DNA from: Halobacteriovorax sp.
GTDB lineage: Bacteria; Bdellovibrionota; Bacteriovoracia; Bacteriovoracales; Bacteriovoracaceae
Assembly (NCBI GenBank): GCA_002720865.1
Contig: PBIO01000030.1
Location: 124,001-188,000, forward strand
Direction: 5' to 3'
DNA: 64,000 nucleotides
Made by a program: the position numbers and the translations under genes. A model generated the notes under the pieces. That model did not search any database and had not been told where the DNA came from. It was given only the letters and a program-made list of their open reading frames with translations. Shown here piece by piece: positions 34,825-61,191 of this stretch; position 1 is the first letter of the stretch, and each line of letters begins with the position of its first letter.

Positions 34825-34913
34825 TTTCGTTCCTTATACCTAGCGCGTCATAAATATTTTAAATTAGGCTTAGCATTTTACATTGGACAACACACCTTCA
34901 GAAGCAATTTCTT

Positions 34914-34942
34914 TTGCAAGTACTTCTATTAAGCTTTATATT
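34914..34942 (+). promoter_or_regulatory. Putative sigma-70 promoter of the amidotransferase operon
   Basis: TTGCAA at 34914-34919 and TATATT at 34937-34942 (4 of 6 and 5 of 6 consensus matches) are separated by exactly 17 bases. The predicted transcript would begin near 34949, before GAGGG (34964-34968) and ATG 34976. The promoter lies downstream of ATG 34883, so it supports the shorter start of the amidotransferase gene. It sits in the 151-base gap to the divergent gene ending at 34824. Confidence 0.45.
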
Positions 34943-34975
34943 TGGTCATTAATCAAAGATATCGAGGGCAACCTA

Positions 34976-36737: not shown

Positions 36738-36741
36738 GATA

Positions 36742-38859: not shown

Positions 38860-38868
38860 GATCACAAT

Positions 38869-41623: not shown

Positions 41624-41627
41624 GTAG

Positions 41628-42689: not shown

Positions 42690-42691
42690 GT

Positions 42692-45113: not shown

Positions 45114-46535
45114 ATGCAAAGCATCATAGACGAACTCCCCAAGGAATTCTCAAGGAACTTAGAAAACCGAAAAGTCATTTGTATTCAAGGCTTAGGCTTT
45201 GTTGGTGCTGCAATGTGTGCTGTCGTATCAAATAGTTTAGATGAAAACGGAGAAAACTATAAAGTAATTGGTGTAGATTTAGATGGAGAAAGAGTCCAAT
45301 CTATAAACGATGGCTCATTCCCTATTAATACAAACGATCCAGCAATGGATGAAGCAATTAAGCGGGCGACCTCTGGTGGCAACCTAGTTGCGACAGAAAA
45401 ACCTGACTTTTACTCAATCGCAGATATCGTTGTTATGGATATTAATTGCGACCTGATCGAAGATGAGAAAGGCAAATGGGTAAATCTTGAAACTATTGAA
45501 AAAGCAACAGCATCTATAGCCAAGAGAATTAAACAAGAATGCTTATTAATTGTTGAAACAACTGTCCCTCCAGGTACTTGTGAAAAGATAATTCTTCCTA
45601 TTCTTTCCAAAGAATTTTCACAAAGAGGACTAGATAATAGCAAAATTAAACTAGCTCACTCATATGAAAGAGTTATGCCTGGAAAAGATTATTACGACTC
45701 AATTCAAAACTGCTGGAGGGTTTACTCTGGCCTGAATCAAGAATCCAGTGAGCTTTGCAAAAAATTCTTAACAACAATTATAAACACTAAAGAATTTCCA
45801 TTAACAGAACTATCTAACTTAAAAGCCTCTGAAACAGCTAAAGTTCTAGAGAACTCTTTTCGTGCGGCTAATATTGCATTTATCGACGAATGGTCGCGTT
45901 TTGCAGAAAGCATTGGTGTTAACTTATTCGAAGTTATCGACGCTATAAAAGTAAGACCAACCCATAAGAATATCATGCTCCCAGGATTTGGAGTTGGTGG
46001 TTATTGCCTAACAAAAGACCCATATTTCGCTAAGTTCTCTGCACATGAAATCTTCAATAATAAAGAGCTAGATTTCCCTTTTTCTGACTTACTTCTTCAA
46101 GTTAACAAGGAAATGCCATTATCCACTTTTGAAACTTTAAGAAATTATTTCCAAGGCGATCTAGCGAATAAAAAAGTTCTTCTTCTAGGGGTTAGTTATC
46201 GAGAGGAAGTTGCAGACACAAGATATTCTGCTTCTGAGATATTTTATAAGGAAGTAAAAAAACATGACGTAGACATTAAGTGCCTAGATCCTCTAGTTGA
46301 ATACTGGGAAGAGACCGACGTTAAACCTTTCAGAGCCTTACCTGATGACAATGATTTCGACGCTCTAATATTCTCTGTAAGACACAGTGAATTCGAAGAT
46401 TATAATTTTGAAAAATGGCTCGACGGAAAGAAGCCTCTCATAATCGATGCCAACAATGTGCTAAACTCAAAGAATATTGAATTTTATAAAAGCTTGGGAT
46501 GTAATGTCAGAGCAATTGGAAGAGGTGATCTCTAA
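45114..46535 (+). CDS. UDP-glucose/GDP-mannose-dehydrogenase family protein
   Basis: A 473-residue nucleotide-sugar 6-dehydrogenase that would oxidise a UDP- or GDP-hexose to the uronate. The NAD site is ICIQGLGFVGAAMCAVV; middle motifs are DIVVMDINCDLI and VETTVPPGTCEKII; the catalytic Cys is in GFGVGGYCLTKDPYF; the C-terminal domain has VLLLGVSYREEVADTRYSAS. Length and motif order are normal, with slightly longer N-terminal part (about 20 residues before the first strand). It is closer to WbpA/UDP-ManNAc-type than to UDP-Glc dehydrogenase in pattern, but the substrate is uncertain. It opens a plus-strand group whose genes overlap. Confidence 0.9.
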   Translation: MQSIIDELPKEFSRNLENRKVICIQGLGFVGAAMCAVVSNSLDENGENYKVIGVDLDGERVQSINDGSFPINTNDPAMDEAIKRATSGGNLVATEKPDFYSIADIVVMDINCDLIEDEKGKWVNLETIEKATASIAKRIKQECLLIVETTVPPGTCEKIILPILSKEFSQRGLDNSKIKLAHSYERVMPGKDYYDSIQNCWRVYSGLNQESSELCKKFLTTIINTKEFPLTELSNLKASETAKVLENSFRAANIAFIDEWSRFAESIGVNLFEVIDAIKVRPTHKNIMLPGFGVGGYCLTKDPYFAKFSAHEIFNNKELDFPFSDLLLQVNKEMPLSTFETLRNYFQGDLANKKVLLLGVSYREEVADTRYSASEIFYKEVKKHDVDIKCLDPLVEYWEETDVKPFRALPDDNDFDALIFSVRHSEFEDYNFEKWLDGKKPLIIDANNVLNSKNIEFYKSLGCNVRAIGRGDL

Positions 46536-47515
46536 TGAAAAAAGTATTGATTACAGGCGGTGCAGGGTTTATTGGGTTCCACCTAGCTAAAACTTTGAGA
46601 AATTCAGGGGTCGAGATTCACATACTAGATAATCTTCAAAGAGGAAGAATCGATTCTGATTTTGAAACTCTCCTGGAAAGTAACAATGTTAGTTTTTTTC
46701 AAAAAGATCTTTTAGATTCTAGCTGTTTTTCTGATTTTGATACTGACTACGATTACATTTTCCATTTCAGTGCCATTATTGGTGTAGCCAATGTTTTAAA
46801 AGCTCCTTTCAGTGTATTAGATAAAAATGTAAAAATGCTTTCGAATGTGCTTAGTTTTTCTGAAAAAAACAAATCATTAAAACAATTTGTTTTTCCCTCC
46901 ACTAGCGAAATATATGCTGGAACACTTGAAAAGTTTGAATTAGAGTTTCCTACTCCTGAAACCACCCCCTTGGCCATTACAGATCTTGAAAAGCCAAGAA
47001 CGTCATACATGCTCTCGAAGATTTACGGTGAAGCAATGGTCATTCATTCAGGCCTACCCTATCTTATCATACGTCCTCATAATTTTTTCGGGCCGAGAAT
47101 GGGACTATCACACGTTATCCCAGAGCTTCTAAAAAGATCTTATGAGTCCAGTGATGGAGATTCATTAGATGTTTATAGTATGAATCATACAAGAACATTT
47201 TGTTACATAGATGATGCTATTAACCAAATCCTATCTCTTTTAGAACATGAAAAAATAAATGATGTTTTTAATATAGGAATTGAGACCCCCGAAGTAACTA
47301 TCGAAGAATTGGCAAAAACAGTTGTTAAAATTACAGGAAAAGATCTTATATTAAACGAGATGCCTGAAACACCTGGAAGCCCTAGGCGTCGCTGTCCTAG
47401 TATTCAAAAAGTATGTGGAAAAAGTAAAAAATTAAATTTCACTTCTCTAGAGGATGGAATCTCAAAAACTTTTGAGTGGTACAAAGCAAATTCTTTCAGC
47501 AGAGAACATTTATGA
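46535..47515 (+). CDS. NAD-dependent epimerase/dehydratase (extended SDR)
   Basis: A 326-residue SDR enzyme. The NAD site is KVLITGGAGFIGFHLAKTL, then DNLQRGR; active-site residues are in FVFPSTSEIYAG and YMLSKIYGEAM (YxxxK), followed by IRPHNFFGPRMG and NIGIETPEVTIEELA. It belongs to the UDP-glucose-epimerase/uronate-decarboxylase-like group, and since it follows a dehydrogenase gene by one shared base it might act on the uronate product as epimerase or decarboxylase. Its TGA overlaps the ATG of the next gene (ATGA). Confidence 0.85.
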   Translation: MKKVLITGGAGFIGFHLAKTLRNSGVEIHILDNLQRGRIDSDFETLLESNNVSFFQKDLLDSSCFSDFDTDYDYIFHFSAIIGVANVLKAPFSVLDKNVKMLSNVLSFSEKNKSLKQFVFPSTSEIYAGTLEKFELEFPTPETTPLAITDLEKPRTSYMLSKIYGEAMVIHSGLPYLIIRPHNFFGPRMGLSHVIPELLKRSYESSDGDSLDVYSMNHTRTFCYIDDAINQILSLLEHEKINDVFNIGIETPEVTIEELAKTVVKITGKDLILNEMPETPGSPRRRCPSIQKVCGKSKKLNFTSLEDGISKTFEWYKANSFSREHL

Positions 47516-48555
47516 TTGATGCACAAGCTCTTACGATAAGTCTCGAAAATTCTATACTCGACACTATAAAAGTAATTGATGAAGGGACCACAAAAATTGC
47601 ACTTGTTGTAGATGGAAAATCCATTGTAGGCGTCGTTACCGATGGTGACATTAGAAGGCATATTTTAAAAGGAAACTCTTTAGAAGAACCTGTCTCTAAA
47701 TTGGTTAGTAAAAAACCAGTCACGATTAAAGAGAATACACCGAAAGAAGAAGTTTTACAGATGATGAAAAAGTTTGAAGTAAAGCATATTCCTGTTGTAA
47801 ATGATAAGGATGAACTTATAGGACTAGAATGCCTAGACCTCCTGTTTTTCACAGAGAAAATTGATTACCCCGTCGTTTTAATGGCAGGTGGTTTGGGCAC
47901 AAGGCTTGGTGAACTAACCAAAAATAAGCCCAAACCATTAGTAGAACTGGATACCCAACCGATACTGGAAAAAATTATTGAACAGTTTAAAAATCAGGGA
48001 TTCTGGAACTTTCACATTTCAGTAAACCATATGGCCAATCAGATTATTGATTACTTTGGTGACGGTGAGAAGTGGGGGGTAAAAATTCAGTATCTTAAAG
48101 AAAAAGAAAAACTAGGGACGGCAGGTGCACTTAGCTTACTTTCGAAGAAAGCAAACTGCCCAATAATAGTCATGAATGCTGATCTTCTAACAAGCGTTAA
48201 GTTTAAACATTTTGTCGATTTTCACTTTGAACAAGACTCATTTGCTTCTATGGCAGTAAGAGAATATGAATTTAATGTTCCTTTTGGTGTATTGAATCTT
48301 GAACAAGAAAATATCACTAATATTCAAGAGAAACCCTCTCAGAAGTTCTTTGTTAATGCAGGAATCTACGTTCTCTCCCCGCAAGTTTTAGATATTTTAG
48401 AGCCTGGTAAGCATATCGACATGACACAGCTTTTTTCAAAATTGATAGAGATGAAGAAAAAAGTCGTTGCATTTCCCATTCGAGAATATTGGTTAGACAT
48501 CGGACAACCTAAAGATCTTGAGCGAGCGCAAACTGACGTTAAAAAACATTTTTAA
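47512..48555 (+). CDS. CBS-domain nucleotidyltransferase (PtmE-like)
   Basis: A 347-residue sugar-1-phosphate nucleotidyltransferase with two N-terminal CBS domains (about residues 5-115) and a GT-A-like catalytic domain starting VVLMAGGLGTRLGELTKNKPKPLVEL at about 122. Further motifs are GTAGALSLL, IVMNADLLT and NAGIYVLSP. The start ATG 47512 overlaps the previous stop; a frame opening at 47476 is inside the SDR gene. This architecture matches PtmE-type enzymes that make GDP-glucosamine derivatives for legionaminate-type pathways. The exact sugar phosphate is not known. Confidence 0.88.
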   Translation: MIDAQALTISLENSILDTIKVIDEGTTKIALVVDGKSIVGVVTDGDIRRHILKGNSLEEPVSKLVSKKPVTIKENTPKEEVLQMMKKFEVKHIPVVNDKDELIGLECLDLLFFTEKIDYPVVLMAGGLGTRLGELTKNKPKPLVELDTQPILEKIIEQFKNQGFWNFHISVNHMANQIIDYFGDGEKWGVKIQYLKEKEKLGTAGALSLLSKKANCPIIVMNADLLTSVKFKHFVDFHFEQDSFASMAVREYEFNVPFGVLNLEQENITNIQEKPSQKFFVNAGIYVLSPQVLDILEPGKHIDMTQLFSKLIEMKKKVVAFPIREYWLDIGQPKDLERAQTDVKKHF

Positions 48556-48558
48556 GAT

Positions 48559-49776
48559 ATGAACTATTCTTCTCGCTATAAAGATTTAACTAAGAAATGG
48601 CATCAATTATTAGATAAATATTATCCCGAAGCAATTCTCTTAAGGTGGCAATTGGACCATCGAGTTTTTAAGTTCAATGAAAAAATTATAAAAATTCAAC
48701 ACAAGACGAGTGTAAATAATCAAAACTTACACTCAGTAAAAAATGAATACGACATATATAAAAGAATTGAGGGATTCTCTATGAATATTCATCCTCAATT
48801 TAAGCAAATCGACTCAGAGTGGGAAGTATTAGAAAAAGACTATATTGATGGCCAAAACTTAGATGAAATGAATCGTGAAGGACGATTACACGAAGCTTCA
48901 ATTGCCAAAATTATTTTAGCAGTTATTAAATTATCATTAAAAGGAATCACGTTTCATCAACTTAGGAATAGACATATTTACGTTACGACGAATGGAAATG
49001 TTGAATTTATCGATTTTGGTGGATCAGAAATATCCGGTATCTTAAAGTCTTTTAAAAACAACTTCTCTATTTTCAAGAATGGAAAACCTTCTCAATTCCT
49101 TTTTGTTCTTAAAGGATTAGCTTCAGTAAAAATTAAGAAATTATTAATGATGAAAAACTCTCTCGATACTATCGATAGAAAAATATTGGCTGAAAGACAA
49201 TTTCATAAAAACCTGGCTCACAAATATGAGGATGAGCTTGGTCAGTATACTGATTTGATAAATCAAATAACTTCTAAATCACCAAATCAAATATATTACA
49301 ACTTCGTCTTTCAGATTCCTTCAGTTGATTATGTTTATTGGGGTTTAAGTGACTGGGGAATAATCTGGGACTCCATATTAAGAAGGACCTCATTTGAAAA
49401 CAAAAAGGTCGCTTTAGTTGGTGGCTCTATGGGACTTCCCGCGATATTCTCAATCCTTCAAGGGGCTTCAAGCTGTTTAATCTATGAGGACAACGACAAG
49501 TTAAGAGAAGCGATTCTCATTTTAAGCAAGCTACTAGGAACTTCCGACAAGCTCGAATTTCGCCCTTATGATAAGCTTGCGGAATGCCAAAGTTCTGAAT
49601 TCGATATTCTTTTTGATCTACAGAACAAGAAAGAGTTATATGAGAATCTTAGAATCTCTTCAAATGTAATTACCAAATCTGACGCCAGAGACAAAAGTCA
49701 AAAACAGAATATATCTGAGTGCCACTGCGTCACCGACCAGGGCCAAAGCATTAGCCTTTTTAAGCTTCAAATTTAA
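48559..49776 (+). CDS. Kinase-like protein fused to Rossmann-like domain; probable pseudokinase
   Basis: A 405-residue protein with two parts. Residues about 30-160 look like an LPS/Kdo-kinase fold: KFNEKIIKIQHK, VLEKDYIDGQNLDEM, and VEFIDFGGSE with the DFG metal site at about 152-154. Where the catalytic loop HxDxxxxN/H should be, the sequence reads FHQLRNRHI (132-140), with no Asp, so phosphotransfer may be lost. Residues about 280-380 (NKKVALVGGSMGLPAIFSILQGASSCLIYEDN) look like a Rossmann strand-loop-helix of methyltransferase type. I do not recognise the combination. It lies 3 bases after the nucleotidyltransferase gene and before a methyltransferase and an ABC exporter. Confidence 0.6.
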   Translation: MNYSSRYKDLTKKWHQLLDKYYPEAILLRWQLDHRVFKFNEKIIKIQHKTSVNNQNLHSVKNEYDIYKRIEGFSMNIHPQFKQIDSEWEVLEKDYIDGQNLDEMNREGRLHEASIAKIILAVIKLSLKGITFHQLRNRHIYVTTNGNVEFIDFGGSEISGILKSFKNNFSIFKNGKPSQFLFVLKGLASVKIKKLLMMKNSLDTIDRKILAERQFHKNLAHKYEDELGQYTDLINQITSKSPNQIYYNFVFQIPSVDYVYWGLSDWGIIWDSILRRTSFENKKVALVGGSMGLPAIFSILQGASSCLIYEDNDKLREAILILSKLLGTSDKLEFRPYDKLAECQSSEFDILFDLQNKKELYENLRISSNVITKSDARDKSQKQNISECHCVTDQGQSISLFKLQI

Positions 49777-49815
49777 AAGGAAAATACAAGTTTTACGCGA
49801 CTGGTCTTTTTACAA

Positions 49816-49847
49816 TATAAGCTTATAAGTGGTACTCTAAGCCACTT
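49816..49847 (+). promoter_or_regulatory. 12-base palindrome and adjacent hairpin upstream of 49869 gene
   Basis: TATAAGCTTATA at 49816-49827 is a perfect 12-base palindrome. It is joined to an inverted repeat AAGTGG (49827-49832) / CCACTT (49842-49847) with a 9-base loop. No T-run follows, so it is not a typical terminator. The place, in a 92-base gap between the pseudokinase and methyltransferase genes, fits an operator or a processing signal; function is a guess. Confidence 0.4.
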
Positions 49848-49868
49848 AATCTGAGAAAAGGCATATAT

Positions 49869-51269
49869 ATGACTGAGACTGAAAATTGCAGATCAATGGC
49901 TCTAACTCCATTCGCCAGAGACCCTTATCATAATTTTTTTGAAAAAAATAAAATGGCTTTTTTAAAGGTAGATGAAAAAAAATTTGATGATTTAGAATCG
50001 GTTCTTTCATCGAAGCAATGCCCGAAAGCGATTCTCGATAGAGATGAAATGTCTATCAGGTACGAAAAATTTGCTACTCCTATTAAGACTACGGAAATTC
50101 CCCCTACCCTTAAAAAAGACTATGCGATCACATATTTAAAGATGGCACTCAGACTGGAAAAAGAAGGCTTAACGCTGACCAACTCGGAGTTTCTAAGCTG
50201 CCATGTTGATTTTAATAGCGAGCCTTTTTTCAAAGATTTTAGCTCAATCGTAAAAAAATCTAATAATACTAGGTTTCCATTTATAGACTTTATCAATAAC
50301 CAATATGCTTTGATTTCACTCTATAATAAATACCCCCGCTTGATAGGTCTTGCCAGGGATGGAGGAAAGCTTGATATTGAAGACCTAATGGCAATCGAAC
50401 ACAAGTTTGCAAATTTTTTCTTATCAGCTTTATCTAATCTACTATCTAAACCGCTCTCTAAGAAAATTAGTCGATTTGTTAAGGTTTATCCATTCTTGTA
50501 CAAAAATAAGCTTAATCCATTAGCCTTAGTAGAGATTTTCAAATTCCTGTTTGATAAAAATAGAAGCGCTGAAGGTGTAATCAACCTTTTACTAAAAGAA
50601 CTTCAATCACTTCCAAACTTTTGTTTTGAAGGTAAATGGACTGACTATTATTCAAGTATTGACCTAGAAGCAACCTTTTCCGAAAAATCAAATTGGAAAA
50701 TCAACTATCAAGGAAATAGGGCTAAGGCCATTATTAAAGTTCTTGAAGAGGATGCTGATAAGAAATACACATTATTAGATACCGGTTCAAACCAGGGTTA
50801 TTTCTCACTCATAGGATCTAATCTTGGATATAGAGTTACTGCGATGGATTACGACGTGGCTTCTATCGATCATTTATACCGGCGCTTAAAAAAAGAAGCT
50901 TATCGTTATGAACTATTACCACTAGTAGTTAATTTTTCAAATCTAACTAGTAATGATCTTCAAAGATTAAGATCAGACTATGTCATAGCCTTAGGTTTTA
51001 CTCATCACCTTTGGTACGTTGAAGGATATACTTGGGAGCAAATATCTAATACTTTTTCTAGTCTTTCTGAAAAAGTATTTATTACAGAATTTAAGCCTAA
51101 CACAAAGGGGCGTGGATCAAAAACGATTAAGTCTTTGGCAGGCTCTAGATATGAACTAGATGACTTTACAGAAGCTTTAAAAAAGAACTTCAAGACTGTA
51201 GAGGTGGTCGGTGAATACACAGCCGAAGCATCTACTGCCGGAAGATTGTTAATAGTCGCGAGAAAGTAA
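49869..51269 (+). CDS. Large SAM methyltransferase-like protein (NoeA-like)
   Basis: A 466-residue protein with AAAGG seven bases before its ATG. The C-terminal third is a class I methyltransferase: YTLLDTGSNQGYFSLIGSNLGYRVTAMDYDV, SDYVIALGFTHHLWYVEGYTW and SEKVFITEFKPN. The DTGSNQGYFS form of the SAM motif is that of the group including the nodulation protein NoeA. The N-terminal 280 residues are alpha-helical, with LIGLARDGGKLDIEDLMAIEHKFANFF, and match nothing I recognise. It is 2 bases before the ABC exporter gene, so modification and export are probably linked. Confidence 0.72.
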   Translation: MTETENCRSMALTPFARDPYHNFFEKNKMAFLKVDEKKFDDLESVLSSKQCPKAILDRDEMSIRYEKFATPIKTTEIPPTLKKDYAITYLKMALRLEKEGLTLTNSEFLSCHVDFNSEPFFKDFSSIVKKSNNTRFPFIDFINNQYALISLYNKYPRLIGLARDGGKLDIEDLMAIEHKFANFFLSALSNLLSKPLSKKISRFVKVYPFLYKNKLNPLALVEIFKFLFDKNRSAEGVINLLLKELQSLPNFCFEGKWTDYYSSIDLEATFSEKSNWKINYQGNRAKAIIKVLEEDADKKYTLLDTGSNQGYFSLIGSNLGYRVTAMDYDVASIDHLYRRLKKEAYRYELLPLVVNFSNLTSNDLQRLRSDYVIALGFTHHLWYVEGYTWEQISNTFSSLSEKVFITEFKPNTKGRGSKTIKSLAGSRYELDDFTEALKKNFKTVEVVGEYTAEASTAGRLLIVARK

Positions 51270-51271
51270 TA

Positions 51272-53110
51272 GTGTTTTCAAGCAACTTATCTAAATTTAG
51301 TAACCTTCTTTCAGATGGAGTTTCTCTACTCTCGAAAAAAGAAAGGGGCTCCCTCTGGTTTTACATTGTAGGAAATACTTTCTTTATTACTTTAGACACC
51401 TTTGCAATTACGACCGTAACTCCATTAGTAGCACTAATTGTAGAGCCGGAGCTGTTACAAAAGAATGAACTCCTTTATAAGTTCTACAATTACTGCAACT
51501 TTTCAGAATACAACCATTTTTTAATTTTTCTCGGTATTATAGCAATGCTCTCAATTATTATTGGGAGACTTGGAAAGATTGGTTTCCATTATCTAACTAG
51601 AACCTTTGGAATTCGCTGCCAGGTCAGGTATTCAAAAGAATTGCTAAATAAATCTATTAAAACCCCTTATGTTTGGTTTCTTTCTCAAAATCCAACTAGG
51701 CTGTCTCATTTTATTTATACGGATGTACTTATGTGGAGTAACGATTTTCTTCAGAGAATTGTTAACCTCCCCTCATTTATAATTACTATAATTCTTTCAC
51801 TTTGGGCTTTTATCTTTTTCTCACCAACAGCAGGCTTAGTAAGTATTCTAGTGATGGGCATAATTTTCGGTTTTATTTTTATAAAAATTAAAACCAAACT
51901 CAAAACTCTAGCTGAAAACAGAAGAGTTTATTCTAATGAAATGGCAGTCAATTCAAACTTATTTTTTTCTGGAATTAGAGAAATAAAGCTTAATCAGAAC
52001 CCCGACTTTTTTTCTAAGTACTTTCTAGACTCTTATATGAAGTATAGTGCCTCAATGGTTTCTTTTAAGTTTCTCCAGCTTATCCCAAACACTATCATCT
52101 TTTTAGTGGGACAATGTTTTGCCGTTATCATTGCCCTTTATTTAAACCAAGAGGGTTATACAAGAGGTGAACTCACCGCGATAATGGCTCTACTTTTATT
52201 AATAATCTCTAAGCTTATACCTGTTGCCTCAAACACTTTTTCAGAATTAAGTTTAATCATAAACACCTCTCCTTATATTTCTGGTCTTCTCGACCTAGGT
52301 AAACAAATGGATAGCCAAAAGAGTAGCTTGAGCATTGAGCAAAAAGATAAAGTTACTCTTCCCGAGTCCTGGGAGACTATTCGTCTCGATAGCTTAAGTT
52401 ATTTTTATCCAAATACTAAAATCCCCGCACTTGACGACATTAATTTTTCTTTCGAAAAAGGAAAAATGTATGCCATCGTTGGCTCTTCAGGCGGTGGAAA
52501 AACAACATTAATTAATAATCTTCTTGGTTTACTAGAACCTGCAAGTGGTGAAATTTTGATCGATGATATACCCCTAAATAATCTCGATAAAAAATCTTGG
52601 TATAAAGAATTTGGTGTTGTTCCTCAAAAGTCTTTTTTTGTTGAAGGAACGATCGCTTCTAATATTGCTTTAGGGCTTGAAGAATCAAAAATACATAAAG
52701 AAAATGTGCTTCGCTCAATTAAACAAGCTCAATTAAACGAATTACTTGAAAGTCTCCCTAATGGAATAAATTCTATAATTGAAGATAAGGGAGGCAATTT
52801 CTCTGGTGGTCAACAGCAAAGACTGTCGCTTGCTAGAGCACTGTACGACGATCCAAATATTTTACTCTTAGATGAGGCAACTAGTTCGCTAGATGTGCTT
52901 AATGAAAAACTAATTATGGAGACCCTGGGGCAACTAAAAGGAAAGAAAACGATAATCTTCATCACCCATCGATTAAATTGTTTAAGAGAGTGCGATTCAA
53001 TACTATTTGTAAAAGATGGAAAGCTGATGGATTCAGGATCGTTTGAAGAATTAAACATAAACAATCCGCAATTCAGTAGCATGGTCAAAGAATTTAGTGA
53101 TGACATCTAG
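51272..53110 (+). CDS. ABC exporter, fused membrane and ATPase domains (MsbA/PglK-like)
   Basis: A 612-residue half-transporter. Residues 1-330 hold about six hydrophobic helices; residues about 370-610 are the ATPase: Walker A IVGSSGGGKTTLINNLL, Q-loop VVPQKSFF, signature GGNFSGGQQQRLSLARAL, Walker B ILLLDEATSSLD with the catalytic Glu, and H-loop IFITHRLN. All motifs are intact. GTG at 51272 is used as the start. The type flips lipids or lipid-linked oligosaccharides; PglK exports undecaprenyl-linked heptasaccharide. It is surrounded by modifying enzymes, so it may export the product of this sub-cluster independently of Wzx. It overlaps the next gene by 11 bases. Confidence 0.93.
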   Translation: MFSSNLSKFSNLLSDGVSLLSKKERGSLWFYIVGNTFFITLDTFAITTVTPLVALIVEPELLQKNELLYKFYNYCNFSEYNHFLIFLGIIAMLSIIIGRLGKIGFHYLTRTFGIRCQVRYSKELLNKSIKTPYVWFLSQNPTRLSHFIYTDVLMWSNDFLQRIVNLPSFIITIILSLWAFIFFSPTAGLVSILVMGIIFGFIFIKIKTKLKTLAENRRVYSNEMAVNSNLFFSGIREIKLNQNPDFFSKYFLDSYMKYSASMVSFKFLQLIPNTIIFLVGQCFAVIIALYLNQEGYTRGELTAIMALLLLIISKLIPVASNTFSELSLIINTSPYISGLLDLGKQMDSQKSSLSIEQKDKVTLPESWETIRLDSLSYFYPNTKIPALDDINFSFEKGKMYAIVGSSGGGKTTLINNLLGLLEPASGEILIDDIPLNNLDKKSWYKEFGVVPQKSFFVEGTIASNIALGLEESKIHKENVLRSIKQAQLNELLESLPNGINSIIEDKGGNFSGGQQQRLSLARALYDDPNILLLDEATSSLDVLNEKLIMETLGQLKGKKTIIFITHRLNCLRECDSILFVKDGKLMDSGSFEELNINNPQFSSMVKEFSDDI

Positions 53111-53828
53111 ATTAAAAAAAGAGCTTATTTATTTAAAGAGATTTTTATTGAACATTTTTTCTCCAGAAAGAGTCTTTAAAGTAAGTGTTCAAGATTGCAT
53201 TGCTGAAACAGGTCATTCTTATGGCCCCAACGGAAACCATTTCTTTACTAAAGCACTTCAAGCGGGTGATTCAAAAGAAGAACTTAAAGGGTATCTAAGA
53301 GAATACTATAAGAAATTCTTAGTTAAATCTTTTAATGAATTTGTGAATGAAGATATTGGAAAACCAGAGGGTAAACTTTACTTTCTACCATGGGAAAAGG
53401 ACAGAATCCGAGAACTTGAACGTTTTAAAGGCTCACACAAGGCAGGTCCAACCAACGAGGCGGATTTAGAGATTATTGTAGACCGGCTAGTGAATATATT
53501 AAATATTGTTCGAACTAAAGGTTTTAAACAAAAATCAATTAAAGATGGAATAATTCGAGTTCAAAAACTAGTCAACAAAGACGGTAAATCCAAGTTTATA
53601 ATCAGAGATGGTCAACATAGACTGGCAATAGCATCGTACCTTGAAATTAAAGAAGTATTTGTAACTTATGAATCAGTTTATTATTTTAGGGATAAAGAAG
53701 AGTCAATAATTTTAGAGAAAAGTGTCGACTCATGGCCGAAAGTTAAGAGTGGTCTTATATCACGTGAACAGGCTTTGAAGTATTTTAACAAAGTTTTTAA
53801 CACAACGGTGGGAAATGAGAACTGTTAG
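53100..53828 (+). CDS. ParB/sulfiredoxin-like domain protein
   Basis: A 242-residue protein (ATG 53100; GTG 53097 is adjacent and in frame) overlapping the ABC exporter. The recognisable segment is SKFIIRDGQHRLAIASYLEIKEVFVTY, the DGQHR motif of ParB-N/sulfiredoxin-like domains, which bind or hydrolyse nucleotides. The remaining N-terminal half (KVSVQDCIAETGHSYGPNGNHFFTKAL, then EGKLYFLPWEKDRIRELERFKG) is not known to me. There is no chromosome-partition partner here; its position behind a glycan exporter argues for a role in the polysaccharide, for example a nucleotide-dependent transfer. Function unknown. Confidence 0.6.
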   Translation: MTSRLKKELIYLKRFLLNIFSPERVFKVSVQDCIAETGHSYGPNGNHFFTKALQAGDSKEELKGYLREYYKKFLVKSFNEFVNEDIGKPEGKLYFLPWEKDRIRELERFKGSHKAGPTNEADLEIIVDRLVNILNIVRTKGFKQKSIKDGIIRVQKLVNKDGKSKFIIRDGQHRLAIASYLEIKEVFVTYESVYYFRDKEESIILEKSVDSWPKVKSGLISREQALKYFNKVFNTTVGNENC

Positions 53829-54927
53829 AAAGTTGATAAGGCCATTTATAAGATTTATTTGGAATATCATTAATTTCTTTCGCTGGCCTTATATAGATCT
53901 AGCAGTAATTCTTTGGCCACCGGCTTATGAGTATTTCGACGACATCGTAACAGACATAAAGGATATTTATCCAGTTCTTGATGAAAGAGATTTTGAAATT
54001 GAAGATGGCTCAATGAAGAAGTTTATGCTTGAACTTTATGCTATTGACCGTGCAACTGAAAAAAAGATTTCTCTAAAAATTGACCGACTTTTAGTTGCTC
54101 CACATAAGTTAAGAATTTTAAAGATTCGAATTCGATGGCCTAGAATGAAGTCCCATTGTGATTTCAATTCTTGGGTTAAATGCCCAAAGGTAAATGAGTT
54201 AAAGCAAGTTATAAGAAAAAAATACACTTCAAAAATTAAAGATTACAAGTATGACGTAATAATCCACTCGACAGAAACAGATTCTCAAATCAAAGAAGTT
54301 GAAGACTTAATAGTTAAATACTCGAAAGTTGATACAAATCCAGAAAAGCTTAGATATTTTAAAGAATTAAAGTCTTTTCAATTTCCTAGTGAAGAATATG
54401 TTCTTCTCAATAGTGCTTGGTTACCATTTTTTAATATTAGAAAGAATGGGGACTTAGACTTACTTCCAACTAATAATCTTTATCAAAAAATTTTTTCAAA
54501 AGATGTTCCCAATTTTTCTTCCGGAGTTCCTGGAAAACTAGAAAACAGAATTAGGTTCCATGGATTAAATTCACCATACATGAAATTGGGAGATGTTAAT
54601 TCCCCCGAAGAGTTTATTGGCAAATACGCTAAAAACTTAGGTGGGCTTAATTTCGTACTTCCTCGCCTATACGTTCAGTACAAATTAGACAGAGTGCAAG
54701 AAACGCGTCACGAAATTAATAAATTGAATTTTCTTCGAAGAAAATTTCTAAAAAAACGCCTTGCGACAAAAAATATCAGGAAGCTATTTATAAAATTTGA
54801 TAAAGACCACTCAGACTTAAAAGCGATTTCAGGTTTTTTTAAGTATAAAAAACATGAATCTGACTCATTTCCAAAAATGACTAATATGGATTGGGGAATT
54901 GATCTCATTGATCAAAGTAATTACTAA
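53815..54927 (+). CDS. Unrecognised protein of the ABC exporter sub-cluster
   Basis: A 370-residue protein whose ATG overlaps the previous gene by 14 bases. It starts with a basic, aromatic N-terminus (KLIRPFIRFIWNIINFFRWPYIDL), possibly membrane-interacting, then AVILWPPAYEYFDDIVTDIKDIYPVLDERDFEI and a basic block KLRILKIRIRWPRMKSH. Later YKYDVIIHSTETDSQIKEVEDLI and PGKLENRIRFHGLNSPYMKLGDVN are conserved-looking but unknown to me. The acidic EYFDD/DERDF pairs could bind metal, but no family is assigned. It ends the run of overlapping genes 51272-54927. Confidence 0.55.
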   Translation: MRTVRKLIRPFIRFIWNIINFFRWPYIDLAVILWPPAYEYFDDIVTDIKDIYPVLDERDFEIEDGSMKKFMLELYAIDRATEKKISLKIDRLLVAPHKLRILKIRIRWPRMKSHCDFNSWVKCPKVNELKQVIRKKYTSKIKDYKYDVIIHSTETDSQIKEVEDLIVKYSKVDTNPEKLRYFKELKSFQFPSEEYVLLNSAWLPFFNIRKNGDLDLLPTNNLYQKIFSKDVPNFSSGVPGKLENRIRFHGLNSPYMKLGDVNSPEEFIGKYAKNLGGLNFVLPRLYVQYKLDRVQETRHEINKLNFLRRKFLKKRLATKNIRKLFIKFDKDHSDLKAISGFFKYKKHESDSFPKMTNMDWGIDLIDQSNY

Positions 54928-55030
54928 ACTAACCCGACGCAACAATCCTTCTCCCTTCTTTATAGCTTAAATACTTGATGGACGGTGTAGACTATGTGAA
55001 AATCCGGTAAAAATGCCCTTACATGAGCTT

Positions 55031-55036
55031 AGGAGG
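55031..55036 (+). promoter_or_regulatory. Consensus ribosome-binding site AGGAGG
   Basis: A full AGGAGG is followed after CTTA by ATG 55041. It decides the start of the oxidoreductase gene in favour of 55041 over the in-frame ATG at 55023, which would place this site inside the coding region. Confidence 0.7.
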
Positions 55037-55040
55037 CTTA

Positions 55041-56111
55041 ATGTACAAAGTTAAAGCTGTTGGAGCTGGCTCCATTGGTAATCATATGGCCTATGCTTGT
55101 CGCCAGCTAAACTGGGACGTCACTATTTGTGATATCGACAGTGCCGCACTAGAAAGAACAAAAAACGATATTTATCCTTCTAGGTATGGAGCTTGGGATA
55201 CAGAAATAAAACTGGCTTTGAACTCAGAAGTAGAAACAGAAAATTTCGACGTTGTAATAATTGGTACTCCTCCTGATACTCATATTGCTATAGCAATCAA
55301 TGAGCTCAAGAATAGTTCTCCAAAGGTGATGCTAATTGAAAAACCATTATCTACACCAGAACTTGAAAACTTAAACGAACTTGAAGAACTTGCTAAATCC
55401 AAAGGCACAAAACTTTGTGTTTCTTATAACCATACGACTACTCAAAATACTCTTTTTGCTGAAAACCTAATTCGAAAGGGAGTTTTAGGTACTCCAAAAA
55501 GTATAAACGTTCAGTGGCTTGAGCATTGGGGTGGTATTTTTGGTGCACACCCATGGCTCGCTGGACCACATGACTCTTATCTTGGTTTTTACAAGCGAGG
55601 TGGTGGTTCAACTGGTGAACATTCCCATTGTATAAATATTTTTCAACATTTCTCTAGAGTTCTTGGAATGGGTGAAGTGACTGAAGTTAATGCGACAATG
55701 GATATGATCGAAAATGATAAAGTCTCTTATGATCAAAATGCAATAATTGCTCTAAGAACTGAAAACGGTTTAGTTGGCTCCGTCATTACCGATGTTCTTA
55801 CGAAGCCTGCTAAAAAAGCTGTCAGGATACAAGGCGATAAAGGTTTTATCGAATGGTATGTAAACTACAAGGACGGTTTCGATGCTATCATGTATCAAAG
55901 TGAAGGTGGAGAAATCCAAGAAGAACTCATTTCAAAATCTAGACCTGATGACTTTCAAAATGAAATTAAACATGTCGGAGACATCTTATCTGGACATGTA
56001 AAAATAGAAAACTCTCCCATTTCTTTTGAAACGGGCTTACAGACGATGAAAGTAATCCAAGCTGCTTATAGCTCAGCTATGAATAAACGACTGGTACAGA
56101 TAAATCAGTAA
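55041..56111 (+). CDS. Gfo/Idh/MocA-family oxidoreductase
   Basis: A 356-residue NAD(P)-dependent oxidoreductase starting at ATG 55041 behind AGGAGG. The Rossmann motif is VKAVGAGSIGNHMAYACRQL, then VTICDIDSAALERTKN and VVIIGTPPDTHIAIAI; the EKP motif is in LIEKPLSTPEL, and the catalytic-domain block is GGGSTGEHSHCINIFQHFSRV. It is followed 15 bases later by the NeuB-cupin gene. It differs from the one at 31576. It probably oxidises or reduces a sugar feeding the ulosonate synthase, for example the precursor aldose; this is inferred from order only. Confidence 0.86.
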   Translation: MYKVKAVGAGSIGNHMAYACRQLNWDVTICDIDSAALERTKNDIYPSRYGAWDTEIKLALNSEVETENFDVVIIGTPPDTHIAIAINELKNSSPKVMLIEKPLSTPELENLNELEELAKSKGTKLCVSYNHTTTQNTLFAENLIRKGVLGTPKSINVQWLEHWGGIFGAHPWLAGPHDSYLGFYKRGGGSTGEHSHCINIFQHFSRVLGMGEVTEVNATMDMIENDKVSYDQNAIIALRTENGLVGSVITDVLTKPAKKAVRIQGDKGFIEWYVNYKDGFDAIMYQSEGGEIQEELISKSRPDDFQNEIKHVGDILSGHVKIENSPISFETGLQTMKVIQAAYSSAMNKRLVQINQ

Positions 56112-56126
56112 TTAGAGGAACCCAGT

Positions 56127-57650
56127 ATGCAAAAACTATTAAAAGAAGACATGTTTGTACTAGACCTGGCCAATAACCATCAAGGTGATGAAGAGCATGG
56201 CTTAAACATAATTCGTAACATGGGTGAAGTAGCTAAAAAGCACGGATTGCAAGCGGCACTTAAATTTCAGTTTAGACAATTAGGAACTTTTATTCACCCT
56301 GACTATAAGGGCCGTGATGATGTTAAACACATCCCTAGGTTTGAAAGTACTGTCCTCACTTTTGATACTTACAAAAAGTTTACGGCAGAAGTAAAAAAAC
56401 AAGGAATGCTCTCAATTAGTACTCCTTTTGATGAAGAGTCTATCGCTTGGATTCATGAGCTAGATATCGATATTATCAAGGTTGCCAGTTGTTCAGCTTC
56501 TGATAAACCTTTACTTGAGGCAATCGCAAATGCCGGTAGACCTGTCATAATCTCGACAGGTGGTTTAACTCTTTCTCAAATAGATTGGCTTGTAAGTTTT
56601 TTCGAAGCTAAAAAAGTAGACTTTGCGATCATGCATTGTATTTCACTATACCCGACTCCCCCAGAGCAACTTAACTTAAATCAAATTGATCTCTTGAAAA
56701 AAAGATATCCTGAAATTCCAATAGGCTGGTCAACTCATGAAGAGCCTACCAATCTTGATGCCGTTAAAATTGCTTATGCAAAAGGCGCTCAACTTTTTGA
56801 AAGACATGTTGGTATGAACACGGATAAATATAAGCTAAATGGATACTCATCTACTCCAGACGAAGTAGATGCATGGATGGCTGCTTATAAAGTCGCAAAA
56901 GACTCTTGTGGTGGAACTGAACGTTCACCAGCCCCACCTGAGGAAATAAATGCACTTAGAACTTTATTTAGAGGTGTGTGGGCCAAAAAAGGAATTAAAA
57001 AAGGCGAAATCATAAAAAGAGAAGATATCTTCTTTGCAATGCCACTCCAGGAAGAGCAACTAGTTAGCGGTGATTTTTCAAATGATATCGTTGCAGATAG
57101 AGATTACGAAGCAAACCAACCTATTAATGAAAATATCGTTAAGTCGGATGTTGCACCGGATGACTTAGTTTACGAAATTATGCTCCAAGTAAAGGGTATG
57201 CTTAACAATGCACGAATCTTTGTAAATAAAGATGCAGGTATTGAAATTTCTCACCACTACGGACTTGAAAGATTTAGAGAGTTTGGTTGTGTGATTATTG
57301 ATTGTATCAACAGAGAGTATGCTAAGAAGCTATTAATCCAACTTCCAAGACAAAAGCACCCCTACCATCTTCACAAGAAAAAGGAAGAAACATTTCAGCT
57401 ACTATATGGTGACTTAGAAGTAGAAGTTAACGGCCAAAGGTCAAAACTCCTTCCAGGTGACACATTTTTAGTTGAAAGAGGTCAATGGCATAAGTTCCAC
57501 ACTTTAGATGGAGCTATTTTTGAAGAAGTATCAACGACTCACTTTAACAATGATTCGTATTACGAAGACCAAAAAATCGCTAAAATGGAGCGCTCAGAAA
57601 GAAAAACCAATGTAGACTCTTGGGCTGAGGCATTTCACTGGCGATACTAA
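56127..57650 (+). CDS. NeuB-family ulosonate synthase fused to cupin
   Basis: A 507-residue enzyme. Residues about 5-260 are a NeuB barrel (LDLANNHQGDEEHGLNII, ALKFQFRQL, LSISTPFDEESI, VIISTGG, IMHCISLYPTP, IGWSTHEEP); about 277-340 an SAF domain (TLFRGVWAKKGIKKGEIIKRED); about 350-507 a cupin with metal-site HLH at 414-416, Glu 421, PGD at 443-445 and His 455 (RGQWH). The synthase would join phosphoenolpyruvate to an aldose; the cupin may be an isomerase or epimerase providing that aldose. Its N-terminal motif NNHQG differs from PseI (SGNHNQ). It follows an oxidoreductase gene by 15 bases and precedes HAD and CMP-sugar synthetase genes. Confidence 0.88.
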   Translation: MQKLLKEDMFVLDLANNHQGDEEHGLNIIRNMGEVAKKHGLQAALKFQFRQLGTFIHPDYKGRDDVKHIPRFESTVLTFDTYKKFTAEVKKQGMLSISTPFDEESIAWIHELDIDIIKVASCSASDKPLLEAIANAGRPVIISTGGLTLSQIDWLVSFFEAKKVDFAIMHCISLYPTPPEQLNLNQIDLLKKRYPEIPIGWSTHEEPTNLDAVKIAYAKGAQLFERHVGMNTDKYKLNGYSSTPDEVDAWMAAYKVAKDSCGGTERSPAPPEEINALRTLFRGVWAKKGIKKGEIIKREDIFFAMPLQEEQLVSGDFSNDIVADRDYEANQPINENIVKSDVAPDDLVYEIMLQVKGMLNNARIFVNKDAGIEISHHYGLERFREFGCVIIDCINREYAKKLLIQLPRQKHPYHLHKKKEETFQLLYGDLEVEVNGQRSKLLPGDTFLVERGQWHKFHTLDGAIFEEVSTTHFNNDSYYEDQKIAKMERSERKTNVDSWAEAFHWRY

Positions 57651-57651
57651 A

Positions 57652-58260
57652 ATGCCCCTTAGTGAAAAAAAGGTATTTGTTTTTGATTTTGATGGAACTT
57701 TAGTTGATTCAAATAAAATCAAAAAGGATGCCTTCTTTCAGCTAACCGATAATGAGCAGTTTAATTTAATTCTTGAGAAGACTCATTCTAAGATGCCTGA
57801 AGTATCACGTTTTATTTTACTAAGAAATGTTCTTGAACAAATGAAACATGATGATATTCAAAGTGAAGTCGATCGACTTTGCTCATTGTACGGAAGTTTA
57901 GTAGAAGAAAAAACTATTGCCTGCACGGAAATGCCAGGTGCGATTGAACTACTTAAGCATTTAGGCCAAAAAAAAGTTAATATTTATCTAAGTTCAAACA
58001 CCCCTGAAATTAGTTTGAAAAAGATAATTTATAAAAGGGGTTGGGATCAATACTTTAAATGTCTTTATGGCTCTCCCCGCAATAAATCAGAAACGATTAA
58101 GCTAATTTCTAAAAATGAAAACCTATCGGATTCCAGTAGGATTGTCGTTTTAGGTGATGGTGAGTCTGATAAACTGTCCGCAGAATCCATCTGCTGTGAC
58201 TTTGTAGACGTAAATTCCGTTTCACTAGTAGATGTCTTAAAGGAACTAAGAAATGTATAA
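57652..58260 (+). CDS. HAD-superfamily phosphatase
   Basis: A 202-residue HAD hydrolase: motif I FVFDFDGTLVDSN, motif II in YLSSNTPE (Ser), Lys in RNKSETIKLI, and motif IV VVLGDGESDK. All four catalytic groups are present, and a helical cap sits after motif I. Between the synthase and CMP-sugar synthetase genes, it most likely removes the phosphate from a ulosonate 9-phosphate (or 8-phosphate), by analogy with KdsC and sialate 9-phosphate phosphatases. That would imply a phosphorylated aldose substrate for the synthase. Confidence 0.87.
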   Translation: MPLSEKKVFVFDFDGTLVDSNKIKKDAFFQLTDNEQFNLILEKTHSKMPEVSRFILLRNVLEQMKHDDIQSEVDRLCSLYGSLVEEKTIACTEMPGAIELLKHLGQKKVNIYLSSNTPEISLKKIIYKRGWDQYFKCLYGSPRNKSETIKLISKNENLSDSSRIVVLGDGESDKLSAESICCDFVDVNSVSLVDVLKELRNV

Positions 58261-58966
58261 GGGAAAAAAAATACTAGCTGTTGTGCCTGCTAGAGGTGGC
58301 AGTAAGGGTATCAAGTTAAAAAATCTTCGCTCAGTTGGAGGTCATACGCTTATAGAGTGGATAGCAAAAACAGTTAAGGACTCAACCACGATAGACAAAA
58401 TAGTTGCCTCAACAGACCATGATGAAATTGCTAAAGAATGCGAAAATTTTAATATTGAAGTACCTTTCCGTAGACCTGAATCACTATCAGGAGACAGAAT
58501 AGGAGATCTCGAGGTTCTCACTCACGCACTAACAGAGTCTGAAAAAGTATACAATACTAATTTCGATGTTGTAGTCATGCTTCAACCGACATCTCCTCTG
58601 AGAACGAGTGAGCACGTTGAAGAATGCATCAAAAAACTCATCGACAATGATTTTGACTCAGTTTGGACTGTTTCCGAAACAGACTCCAAAGGTCACCCTT
58701 TTAAGCAACTAACAATTGAAGGTGAGAACCTTGAATATTACGACAAGGAAAATGGAGGAAAGATTATTGCGAGACAACAACTTACCCCAGTTTACCATCG
58801 AAATGGTGCTGCATACGCTATATCAAGAGATTGCCTTTTAGGTCAAAAATCAATCATGGGAAAAAAATCATCTTACCACTTAATTCAAGGATCAATGATC
58901 AGTATCGATTCTGAGTTTGATATAGATCTTGTTAACTATTTTTTAAGCAAAAAGAATTGCACATGA
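58253..58966 (+). CDS. CMP-ulosonate synthetase (NeuA/LegF-like)
   Basis: A 237-residue cytidylyltransferase: VVPARGGSKGIKLKNLRSVGGHTLIEW, IVASTDHDEIAKECENFNIEVPFRRPESLSGD, VVMLQPTSPLRTSEHVEECI and YHRNGAAYAISRDCL. The QPTSPLR and NGAAY motifs are typical of NeuA and LegF and differ from the PseF-like gene at 32510 (IYPTAPF, GQFYWG). The ATG overlaps the HAD stop by 8 bases and the stop overlaps the next ATG (ATGA). It would activate the product of the NeuB-cupin enzyme with CTP. Confidence 0.9.
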   Translation: MYKGKKILAVVPARGGSKGIKLKNLRSVGGHTLIEWIAKTVKDSTTIDKIVASTDHDEIAKECENFNIEVPFRRPESLSGDRIGDLEVLTHALTESEKVYNTNFDVVVMLQPTSPLRTSEHVEECIKKLIDNDFDSVWTVSETDSKGHPFKQLTIEGENLEYYDKENGGKIIARQQLTPVYHRNGAAYAISRDCLLGQKSIMGKKSSYHLIQGSMISIDSEFDIDLVNYFLSKKNCT

Positions 58967-60321
58967 AAAAAGTACAAATCTTTTTAGAAAGCGATATTAT
59001 CATACGGCATTTTATATTGAATGATACTTTCAAAGAGATTGAAAGAGAGTGTTCTGTCCAATATATCATCTCAGATGACCACAGAGTCCAAACCCCCATT
59101 GATAAACTTAACTTGAAAAATGTAAAGCTCATTAAAGTAAACCGAAAAAGACTCGGTAAAATGCGACAACTGATAAAAGCACTTGGCCTTCGCAAAATTC
59201 AAGATAAACCGAAATACCAATTTCTAAAAGACATCTGGAAAGGCATTTTACCTGAAAAGTCTTACAAGAGAATAAAGCTTTATTCTCATCCATTAATTTT
59301 TCCGATTTATCGTTTTTTTACATTGCTTCTACTTGGTAATTATCCGGAACTAGAAGAAGCCGTCGATGATTTTAAGCCAGATGTGATTTTGCATCCCTGT
59401 GTTCTGGAGGGATTATTTATTTCAGATTTAATTTCTACATCTAAAAAAAGAAATATTCCGTTTGTTGTGCTCATGAACTCTTGGGATAATCCATCTACAA
59501 AAGCCACCGTGCTTGGACTACCAGACTACTTAGTTGTGTGGGGGGAACAAACCATGTCACATGCAATCGAGTTTATGGATATGCCAGCAGACAAGATAAA
59601 GAAATTTGGAGCTGCTCAATTTGAAGTTTACAAAGCCCCACCACTGAAAACCAGAAAGCAGTATTGCCAAGAAGCTTCTATAGATCCTGAGAAAACTTTA
59701 ATCATTTATGCCGGTTCAAGTAAAAGTATTAATGAAATAGAGCATTTGCAAACTTTAGAAAATGCTATCCAATCGGGTGATATCACGGATACTCATATCA
59801 TCTTTAAACCACACCCATGGAGAGCGACCCCAGAAGGCGAGCCAGATTTTTTCTCCATTGACTGGAAACACATATCCATGGACCCAGGAATGGTTCCGTA
59901 TTACAAAAGAAGCGTTGAAAAGAATGACGACTCTATTCAGCTTTCTAGTTATATGGATACTCATATTATTCTCTCTTCAGCTGATATATTAATCTCTAAT
60001 GTTTCAACCATTCTTTTAGAAGCGGCCCTGCACGGCATGCCAATTATGTGCATGGTGTCTGATAAAGAAATTGAGGAGAACAACTTCCTTAGAGTCACGC
60101 TAAACTCTCTCTATTTCAACGACCTAATGGAAAGGCTAGATGTTGCAAGATGCAAAGACCATCAAGAAATCGTCATCGAATGTAAGAAGCTAATAGATAA
60201 ATTCATGACTCCTGATTTTAAAGATAAACAGATTGAAAAAACAAAGTTTTTTGTTGAACTGAAAGAGAAAAGCTATGGCCAACAGGTCTTTGAACTTATT
60301 AAGAATATAGGAAAAGGATAA
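58963..60321 (+). CDS. GT-B-like glycosyltransferase, CMP-ulosonate candidate
   Basis: A 452-residue protein from ATG 58963 (TTG 58957 also in frame). It has FKPDVILHPCVLEGLFISDLIS, FVVLMNSWDNPSTKAT, LPDYLVVWGEQTMSHAIEFM, LIIYAGSSKSINEIEHL, HIIFKPHPW and ADILISNVSTILLEAALHGMPIMCM. The KPHP plus NVSTILLEA pattern is seen in capsule-type GT-B and polysialyltransferase-like enzymes. Since it follows the CMP-ulosonate synthetase with overlapping ATGA, transfer of that ulosonate is the simplest role. No membrane helix is obvious. Confidence 0.7.
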   Translation: MKKVQIFLESDIIIRHFILNDTFKEIERECSVQYIISDDHRVQTPIDKLNLKNVKLIKVNRKRLGKMRQLIKALGLRKIQDKPKYQFLKDIWKGILPEKSYKRIKLYSHPLIFPIYRFFTLLLLGNYPELEEAVDDFKPDVILHPCVLEGLFISDLISTSKKRNIPFVVLMNSWDNPSTKATVLGLPDYLVVWGEQTMSHAIEFMDMPADKIKKFGAAQFEVYKAPPLKTRKQYCQEASIDPEKTLIIYAGSSKSINEIEHLQTLENAIQSGDITDTHIIFKPHPWRATPEGEPDFFSIDWKHISMDPGMVPYYKRSVEKNDDSIQLSSYMDTHIILSSADILISNVSTILLEAALHGMPIMCMVSDKEIEENNFLRVTLNSLYFNDLMERLDVARCKDHQEIVIECKKLIDKFMTPDFKDKQIEKTKFFVELKEKSYGQQVFELIKNIGKG

Positions 60322-60324
60322 TTT

Positions 60325-61191
60325 ATGAATTGTTTAGTTTGCAACTCAAAAACCCAATTGATATTCGATAAACCAATACGTTTAGGAAAGCCTGGAACAC
60401 TAACTCCTGAAAATAGAAAAGTTTTTCAATGTAAAAAATGCCATGTCGCCTTTTTGGAAAAATATAATATAGATTACGAATCTGATGAATATCGTAACTT
60501 GGTAAATAAAGATGCTTCTCCAGAAAGTTATTATAATCAACATGACCCAGAACAAATCGAAAGGCTTGAACTTATTGGCTTTGAAAATGTGAGAAATAAA
60601 ACTGTTGCTGATATTGGATGTGGCTCAGGCTCTTTTCTAGATTTAGTTTCAACGTCTTCTTCAAAAGTATTGGCCATAGAACCAACGTCGACATTCAAAG
60701 ATGAGTTAACTAGAAAAGGCTTTGAACATTTCCCATATGCAAAAGACGCTTTAAATAAATATAAATCAAAAGTCGATTACTTAACGTCATTTGCCGTTAT
60801 TGAACATGTTGATGATGCCCTTGAGTTTCTAAAAGATTGCTTTGAGCTTCTAAGCGATGATGGTCTGGCAGTCATTTCAACTCCAAATCACGACGATTGG
60901 CTAATTGACTTTATGGGTGATACTTATAAAGAATTTTACTACCGCAATGTTCACAAATGGTACTTTAATTTTGAATCTTTTTCTTTTCTCGCTAAACAAG
61001 CTGGCTTTTCAAAAGTAGAAGCTGTTTACCGACACCAATATGACCTTTCAAATATGCTATTTTGGCTTAAAGAAAGTAAGCCAACAGGAAATGGAAAGAT
61101 TAATTTATTTTCTGAGATCAACAATGACTACAAAAAGGTTTTGGAAAAAGAAGGTATCTCAAATTACGTTTACTTTAAATTATCAAAATAA
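60325..61191 (+). CDS. Zinc-finger SAM methyltransferase
   Basis: A 288-residue protein with N-terminal CLVC...CKKC zinc-type pairs and a class I methyltransferase core: TVADIGCGSGSFLDLVS, KVLAIEPTS, VDYLTSFAVIEHVDDALEFLKDCFELLSDDGLAVISTPN. This resembles sugar C-methyltransferases and methyltransferases of polysaccharide loci. It begins 3 bases after the glycosyltransferase gene, completing the ulosonate operon, and ends in a 9-base overlap with a convergent GT4 gene. It may methylate the transferred ulosonate or a chain terminus. Confidence 0.85.
   Translation: MNCLVCNSKTQLIFDKPIRLGKPGTLTPENRKVFQCKKCHVAFLEKYNIDYESDEYRNLVNKDASPESYYNQHDPEQIERLELIGFENVRNKTVADIGCGSGSFLDLVSTSSSKVLAIEPTSTFKDELTRKGFEHFPYAKDALNKYKSKVDYLTSFAVIEHVDDALEFLKDCFELLSDDGLAVISTPNHDDWLIDFMGDTYKEFYYRNVHKWYFNFESFSFLAKQAGFSKVEAVYRHQYDLSNMLFWLKESKPTGNGKINLFSEINNDYKKVLEKEGISNYVYFKLSK

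Follow-up and report, generated by a model that had tools for sequence, protein, structure and literature searches.

Five closely spaced genes in a surface-glycan region of Halobacteriovorax sp. raise the question of whether they form a functional unit, and of what kind. They lie at 48559-54927 of a 64,000-nucleotide (nt) stretch (the window; positions 124,001 to 188,000 of contig PBIO01000030.1, our G000:C30:124001-188000) from a genome of 4.9 Mb. The original prediction took them for a glycan-modification and export unit that might cap a chain before export. All five open reading frames (ORFs) were confirmed on the + strand, as follows (aa, amino acids; SAM, S-adenosylmethionine; ABC, ATP-binding cassette):

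48559..49776, + strand, predicted pseudokinase (about residues 35-160) with a C-terminal Rossmann, SAM-methyltransferase-like domain (about 275-335), 405 aa (pairwise matches, phrog_5108)
49869..51269, + strand, predicted divergent NoeA-family protein, degenerate N-terminal kinase and class I SAM methyltransferase, 466 aa (hhalign)
51272..53110, + strand, ABC exporter half-transporter, PglK/HepA/MsbA-like, 612 aa (NCBIfam, motifs)
53097..53828, + strand, DGQHR protein, predicted ParB/sulfiredoxin/SerK-type fold with a GxHR phosphate-binding-like motif, 243 aa (model, family profile)
53815..54927, + strand, orphan with no known fold, 370 aa (searches negative)

We observed that the five genes are the middle part of a larger surface-glycan operon. 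They are genes 4-8 in a 14-gene + strand run (45114-61191, gaps of -40 to 95 nt), and nonulosonate genes (NeuB, CMP-transferase) flank the segment on the same run. Neighbours among the last four ORFs are either separated by 2 nt or overlapping by 14 nt, as had been predicted from the coordinates, and the glycan-export setting was likewise borne out by the NeuB, CMP-transferase and sugar-nucleotide genes in the operon. The 405-aa gene starts 3 nt past a CBS-nucleotidyltransferase gene (47476-48555), yet 92 nt ahead of the methyltransferase gene. Since it is closer to the former than to the latter, the left edge of the proposed unit is arbitrary. Terminator-like sites were not enriched (9 observed vs 9.6 expected in shuffles). 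We read the five genes as a decoration-and-export segment of this larger, nonulosonate-containing glycan operon, a scheme for which, taken as a whole, the case seems to us evenly balanced.

The prediction that the five genes are a conserved unit did not hold when co-occurrence was checked, the full set being found in no other genome searched. Viral contigs yielded no relatives. What does recur is a smaller core made up of a methyltransferase, a DGQHR protein and a lipid-linked-glycan flippase, so that the predicted gene association stands for this part only. The core was observed in G116 (a genome from the same family as that of the window) and in the Bacillota genome G460, both with Wzx. In G116, the SAM-methyltransferase, DGQHR and Wzx genes are separated by a 2-nt gap and then a 4-nt overlap. 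One of the two G460 copies (copy 2, L098:7370-12987) has Wzx, methyltransferase, DGQHR and putative kinase (HGDLNEKH) genes in consecutive order on one strand, together with a 386-aa protein without Pfam match on the same strand. This kinase is so labelled on its HGDLNxxH ... ILDWE motif only, because it showed no detectable homology to the 405-aa protein and matched nothing in Pfam (E<0.05) or NCBIfam.

The other G460 copy (copy 1, L087:9716-12723) is a DGQHR protein of 506 aa carrying an N-terminal methyltransferase-like domain; it adjoins a Maf_flag10_N protein and lies near flagellin and FliD. The unfused methyltransferase of copy 2 is related to this fused domain (31%, 1e-13), and the two proteins are thus connected by a gene fusion within one genome. 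A second Bacillota genome (G425, L088:9126-11369) encodes a 747-aa protein joining a TPR, a DGQHR and a sugar-transfer-associated ATP-grasp domain, with flagellin, FliW and FliD genes alongside (flagellar names read from the sequences, with no domain scan). Members of the family were found in Bdellovibrionota, Bacillota and haloarchaea. The family is sparse in the window's phylum (2 of 369 genomes, including that of the window), and scans of genome contigs gave two DGQHR loci, one of them on the G116 contig. Among the haloarchaeal loci viewed, 10 of 13 were near flippases, Gfo/Idh, glycosyltransferases or sugar-nucleotide genes. These include eight Halobaculum plasmid records with a flippase within ~6 kb of the DGQHR gene (Gfo/Idh adjacent in 6/8), and the Natronorubrum and Halobellus copies also lie in glycan loci. 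At L101:6575-11407 and the equivalent Halobaculum plasmid loci, Gfo/Idh, DGQHR, epimerase and flippase genes are conserved, and the DGQHR gene is annotated as a hypothetical protein.

Known members of the ParB fold include switches in DNA partition, sulfiredoxins and serine kinases. The original prediction had called the 243-aa product a ParB-like DGQHR protein. The DGQHR label is sub-threshold (TIGR03187, 14.1 bits vs a cut-off of 58.85), and it is the ParB-like part of that call which stood. An AlphaFold model was built from a three-sequence alignment (mean pLDDT, the model's confidence score, of 57, with the best blocks at 70-80). With this model, the top 31 rows from VIA-align were all ParB/Noc/sulfiredoxin/SerK/SbnI/PadC or ParB-like (Z 4.3-6.9), and the best Foldseek match had E=0.009. 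A profile built from ten relatives gave SbnI as its best PDB match (E=0.024). Its weak matches elsewhere in the phylum include chromosomal ParB beside ParA (two checked), and these fall around the GERRLRA motif. Among the 10 aligned relatives, G172 and R175 of the GxHR motif do not vary; the diversity of the family alignment (A6) precluded a pattern scan. The fold assignment is better supported by the model, SbnI and the ParB profile matches than by TIGR03187, in lines that are individually weak but independent. The predicted fold and the GxHR motif liken the protein to the ParB-CTPase/sulfiredoxin/SerK-SbnI group, from which it differs in having no partner ParA in the operon and in occurring in glycan loci.

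Judged by its sequence, the 466-aa protein belongs to the NoeA family of kinase-methyltransferases as a divergent member, and its kinase half lacks the catalytic residues. Compared with 12 NoeA-family members using hhalign, it matched over 397 columns and both domains (probability 99.4%, E=1e-21). The kinase motif KDAxPxNI ... FxD is near-invariant in these relatives, and here reads TNSEFLSC ... FKD, with the catalytic Asp changed to N, the metal-binding Asn to S, and the last D only retained. The SAM motif DxGxNxG and the HH are conserved. NoeA homologues, a group of kinase-methyltransferases believed to decorate molecules that are secreted, are the closest published analogue (PMC9758233). 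The protein resembles the NoeA/Lani_1194 family over both domains and in its retained methyltransferase motif; it differs in the lost kinase Asp and Asn, in the missing PSPxxGW element of the family, and in its neighbours, as no NoeB-like alkaline-phosphatase/sulfatase (the usual partner, of alkaline-phosphatase fold) was found in the operon.

A paralogue in the same genome does have such a neighbour. We observed a NoeA-family kinase-methyltransferase immediately followed by a membrane Sulfatase-family protein at L028:9121-11987 (G000:C9, ~115.6-118.5 kb), and the same arrangement in G080 (L029:8020-10904). Both pairs are NoeA-NoeB-like and lie outside rhizobia; the arrangement has been described for Legionella and Sinorhizobium (PMC9758233).

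The 405-aa protein is, as judged from its motifs, a pseudokinase. Residues 41-158 align with a genuine Pkinase (26% over 123 aa, pairwise); they lack the HGDLTPQN catalytic loop but retain the IDFGG (DFG-type) motif. The C-terminal domain is Rossmann-like, with weak matches to both a SAM methyltransferase (phrog_5108, E=0.0016) and an SDR Rossmann domain (39% over 67 aa). No full-length relative was found in 241 genomes of the phylum. Membership of the NoeA family was also considered for this protein, and was rejected as similarity was undetectable.

The exporter matched PglK best in NCBIfam (E=7e-72, over 563 residues), followed by HepA (1e-70) and MsbA (3e-70). It resembles the PglK/Wzk flippases as a full-length half-transporter with six hydrophobic segments and intact ATPase motifs (Walker A GSSGGGKT, the FSGGQ signature, Walker B and the H-loop). 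It differs in falling far under the PglK cut-off (242.6 bits vs 1000), as it does under every equivalog cut-off. H. pylori Wzk is a PglK-type transporter able to export O antigen (PMC2841628). Identity to its nearest full-length relatives within the phylum is 28-30%. We read the neighbourhoods of the six nearest, and all six lie in glycan loci, with a NeuB-type synthase within ~10 kb in five; the sixth locus, L093, gave no NeuB match. The pseudokinase, NoeA-like, DGQHR and 370-aa genes were present in none of these six neighbourhoods.

The 370-aa protein gave no credible match to Pfam, NCBIfam or PDB entries, and we found no credible relative in 340 genomes of the phylum, genome contigs, plasmids or viral contigs. 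Two weak matches were set aside, one running across stop codons and the other at E=0.0099. A single-sequence model was unusable (pLDDT 36). A LicD/fukutin-like identity was rejected, hhalign against three LicD proteins giving E=0.37 and a probability of 0.2%.

The predicted identities of the other proteins thus fared well. The pseudokinase-Rossmann call agrees with the lost catalytic loop and the Rossmann-like C-terminus, the NoeA-like methyltransferase call was confirmed by hhalign with the addition that the kinase half is degenerate, and the MsbA/PglK-type exporter call was upheld by NCBIfam, though under all equivalog cut-offs. The suggestion of chain capping was weakened as far as phosphate capping by the two kinase-like proteins is concerned.

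The remaining genes of the operon read as follows:

45114..48555, + strand, nucleotide-sugar dehydrogenase, NAD-dependent epimerase/dehydratase and CBS-nucleotidyltransferase, at the operon start (gaps -1, -40 and 3 nt)
55023..58966, + strand, Gfo/Idh/MocA oxidoreductase, NeuB-cupin fusion, HAD phosphatase and CMP-sugar cytidylyltransferase, of nonulosonate-type activation (Pfam, NCBIfam)
58957..61191, + strand, TIGR04326/BFO_1060-like surface-carbohydrate glycosyltransferase and UbiG-like methyltransferase, at the operon end (gap 3 nt)

Sugar genes extend past both sides of the window, which puts the surface-glycan island at ~80 kb. Elsewhere in the window lie two Wzx flippases, two Wzy_C ligase/polymerase-like proteins and a short phosphoglycosyl transferase of the initiating kind (7014-8270, 14434-15747, 15681-18012, 20693-21256). 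With two Wzx and two Wzy_C proteins, the island has more than one route for glycan export. A second nonulosonate-type set lies at 31576-44906 of the window (NeuB, CMP-transferase, a HisH/HisF-like pair, aminotransferases and formyltransferase-like proteins).

In the decoration-and-export scheme, a lipid-linked glycan, probably containing nonulosonate, would be built by cytoplasmic enzymes. The NoeA-like protein would methylate it through its SAM-methyltransferase half, an activity suggested by the conserved motifs. The DGQHR protein may bind nucleotide and partner the methyltransferase, whether to transfer phosphate in the manner of SerK or to serve as a switch under nucleotide control; the fusion and the adjacency seen in other genomes speak for this partnership. 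The two degenerate kinase domains may have a binding or scaffold role in presenting the acceptor. The PglK/Wzk-type ABC exporter would then flip the lipid-linked product, as its family and context suggest, with the 370-aa orphan as a putative accessory. WbdD-like phosphate capping by the 405-aa and 466-aa proteins appears unlikely, because both kinase domains are predicted to be without catalytic residues. None of the tests favours chain termination over internal decoration.

Several observations weigh against the decoration-and-export scheme. The mean pLDDT of the DGQHR model is 57 and the fold-match Z scores are modest (<8). The eight Halobaculum loci are one lineage, and the Soehngenia and Acetoanaerobium relatives, along with 3 of the 13 haloarchaeal ones, lie outside glycan loci. 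Adjacency alone is weak evidence, since glycan loci commonly contain methyltransferases and flippases. With the second routes provided by the Wzx and Wzy_C proteins of the window, the exporter need not carry the product of the operon. Finally, the full set of five genes co-occurs nowhere else in the collections searched.

This last point also fits a reading in which the genes form no functional unit. They would instead be tailoring genes that were acquired separately, each for different sugars, and that now make up a patchwork within a hypervariable glycan island. None of the five proteins had a match in G002, the best genome from the same genus (99% complete). Several further methyltransferases in the island fit the patchwork as well. 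However, four of the genes are tightly coupled, and the methyltransferase, DGQHR and flippase genes recur together, with the fusion in addition, in other lineages. We consider a patchwork unlikely.

A WbdD-like terminator of new design has also to be weighed, in which kinase-like and methyltransferase domains would place a cap (methyl or methyl-phosphate) on the non-reducing end, to be recognised by the exporter. As in WbdD and other O-antigen terminators (E. coli O9a, Klebsiella O3/O7), kinase-like and methyltransferase domains are encoded next to an ABC exporter within a locus of O-antigen type, here as two kinase-methyltransferase-like fusions. Further, WbdD and Klebsiella O7 terminate chains with kinase-methyltransferase pairs of unlike structure (PMC3482155, PMC11231755), and G460 has an intact-looking kinase beside its methyltransferase, DGQHR and Wzx genes. 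However, the catalytic residues appear lost in both kinase domains of the window, the domain order is kinase and then Rossmann, and the exporter is of the single-chain PglK/MsbA type and not Wzm/Wzt, with no Wzt-like carbohydrate-binding domain reported in it. The phosphate might conceivably come from a ParB-fold kinase. We consider a terminator of this kind improbable.

It is similarly improbable that the DGQHR protein and the pseudokinase are regulators (for example, nucleotide-sensing switches on the exporter or on polymer length) and not enzymes of glycan chemistry, since DGQHR fusions to methyltransferase-like and sugar-transfer-associated ATP-grasp domains suggest sugar chemistry, even though ParB-fold proteins are known as nucleoside triphosphate switches as well as enzymes (PMC12704722) and the kinases look inactive.

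Apart from the 370-aa orphan, all proteins of the segment are of known kinds, and together they make up a variant system for decorating and exporting glycans. ATP-binding ParB-methyltransferase fusions are reported in a 2025 survey of the ParB fold (PMC12704722); in the main text of that survey, the terms glycan, sugar, polysaccharide, lipopolysaccharide and flagell have 0 occurrences. We found no literature linking ParB-like proteins to flippases or to flagellin glycosylation, in a search that missed most subscription papers. A glycan role of the ParB-like DGQHR family thus seems undescribed in the sources searched, which is not proof of novelty as the coverage was partial. Since the methyltransferase-kinase pairs of WbdD and Klebsiella O7 differ in structure, a ParB-fold version is conceivable, if speculative. 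We tentatively suggest, as a possibility that falls well short of an even case, that a ParB/sulfiredoxin-fold family acts in glycan assembly in Bdellovibrionota, Bacillota and haloarchaea. Together with a SAM-methyltransferase, it would be a second, non-homologous WbdD-like solution for lipid-linked or flagellin glycans before export, joined here to a PglK-type ABC flippase.

If this is true, the ParB fold would extend to cell-surface sugar chemistry, in association with flippases, methyltransferases and flagellin glycosylation. The addition of methyl (perhaps phosphate) to glycans ahead of a PglK/Wzk-type or Wzx flippase would also become open to test, and a family that currently carries only the annotation hypothetical protein would be defined.

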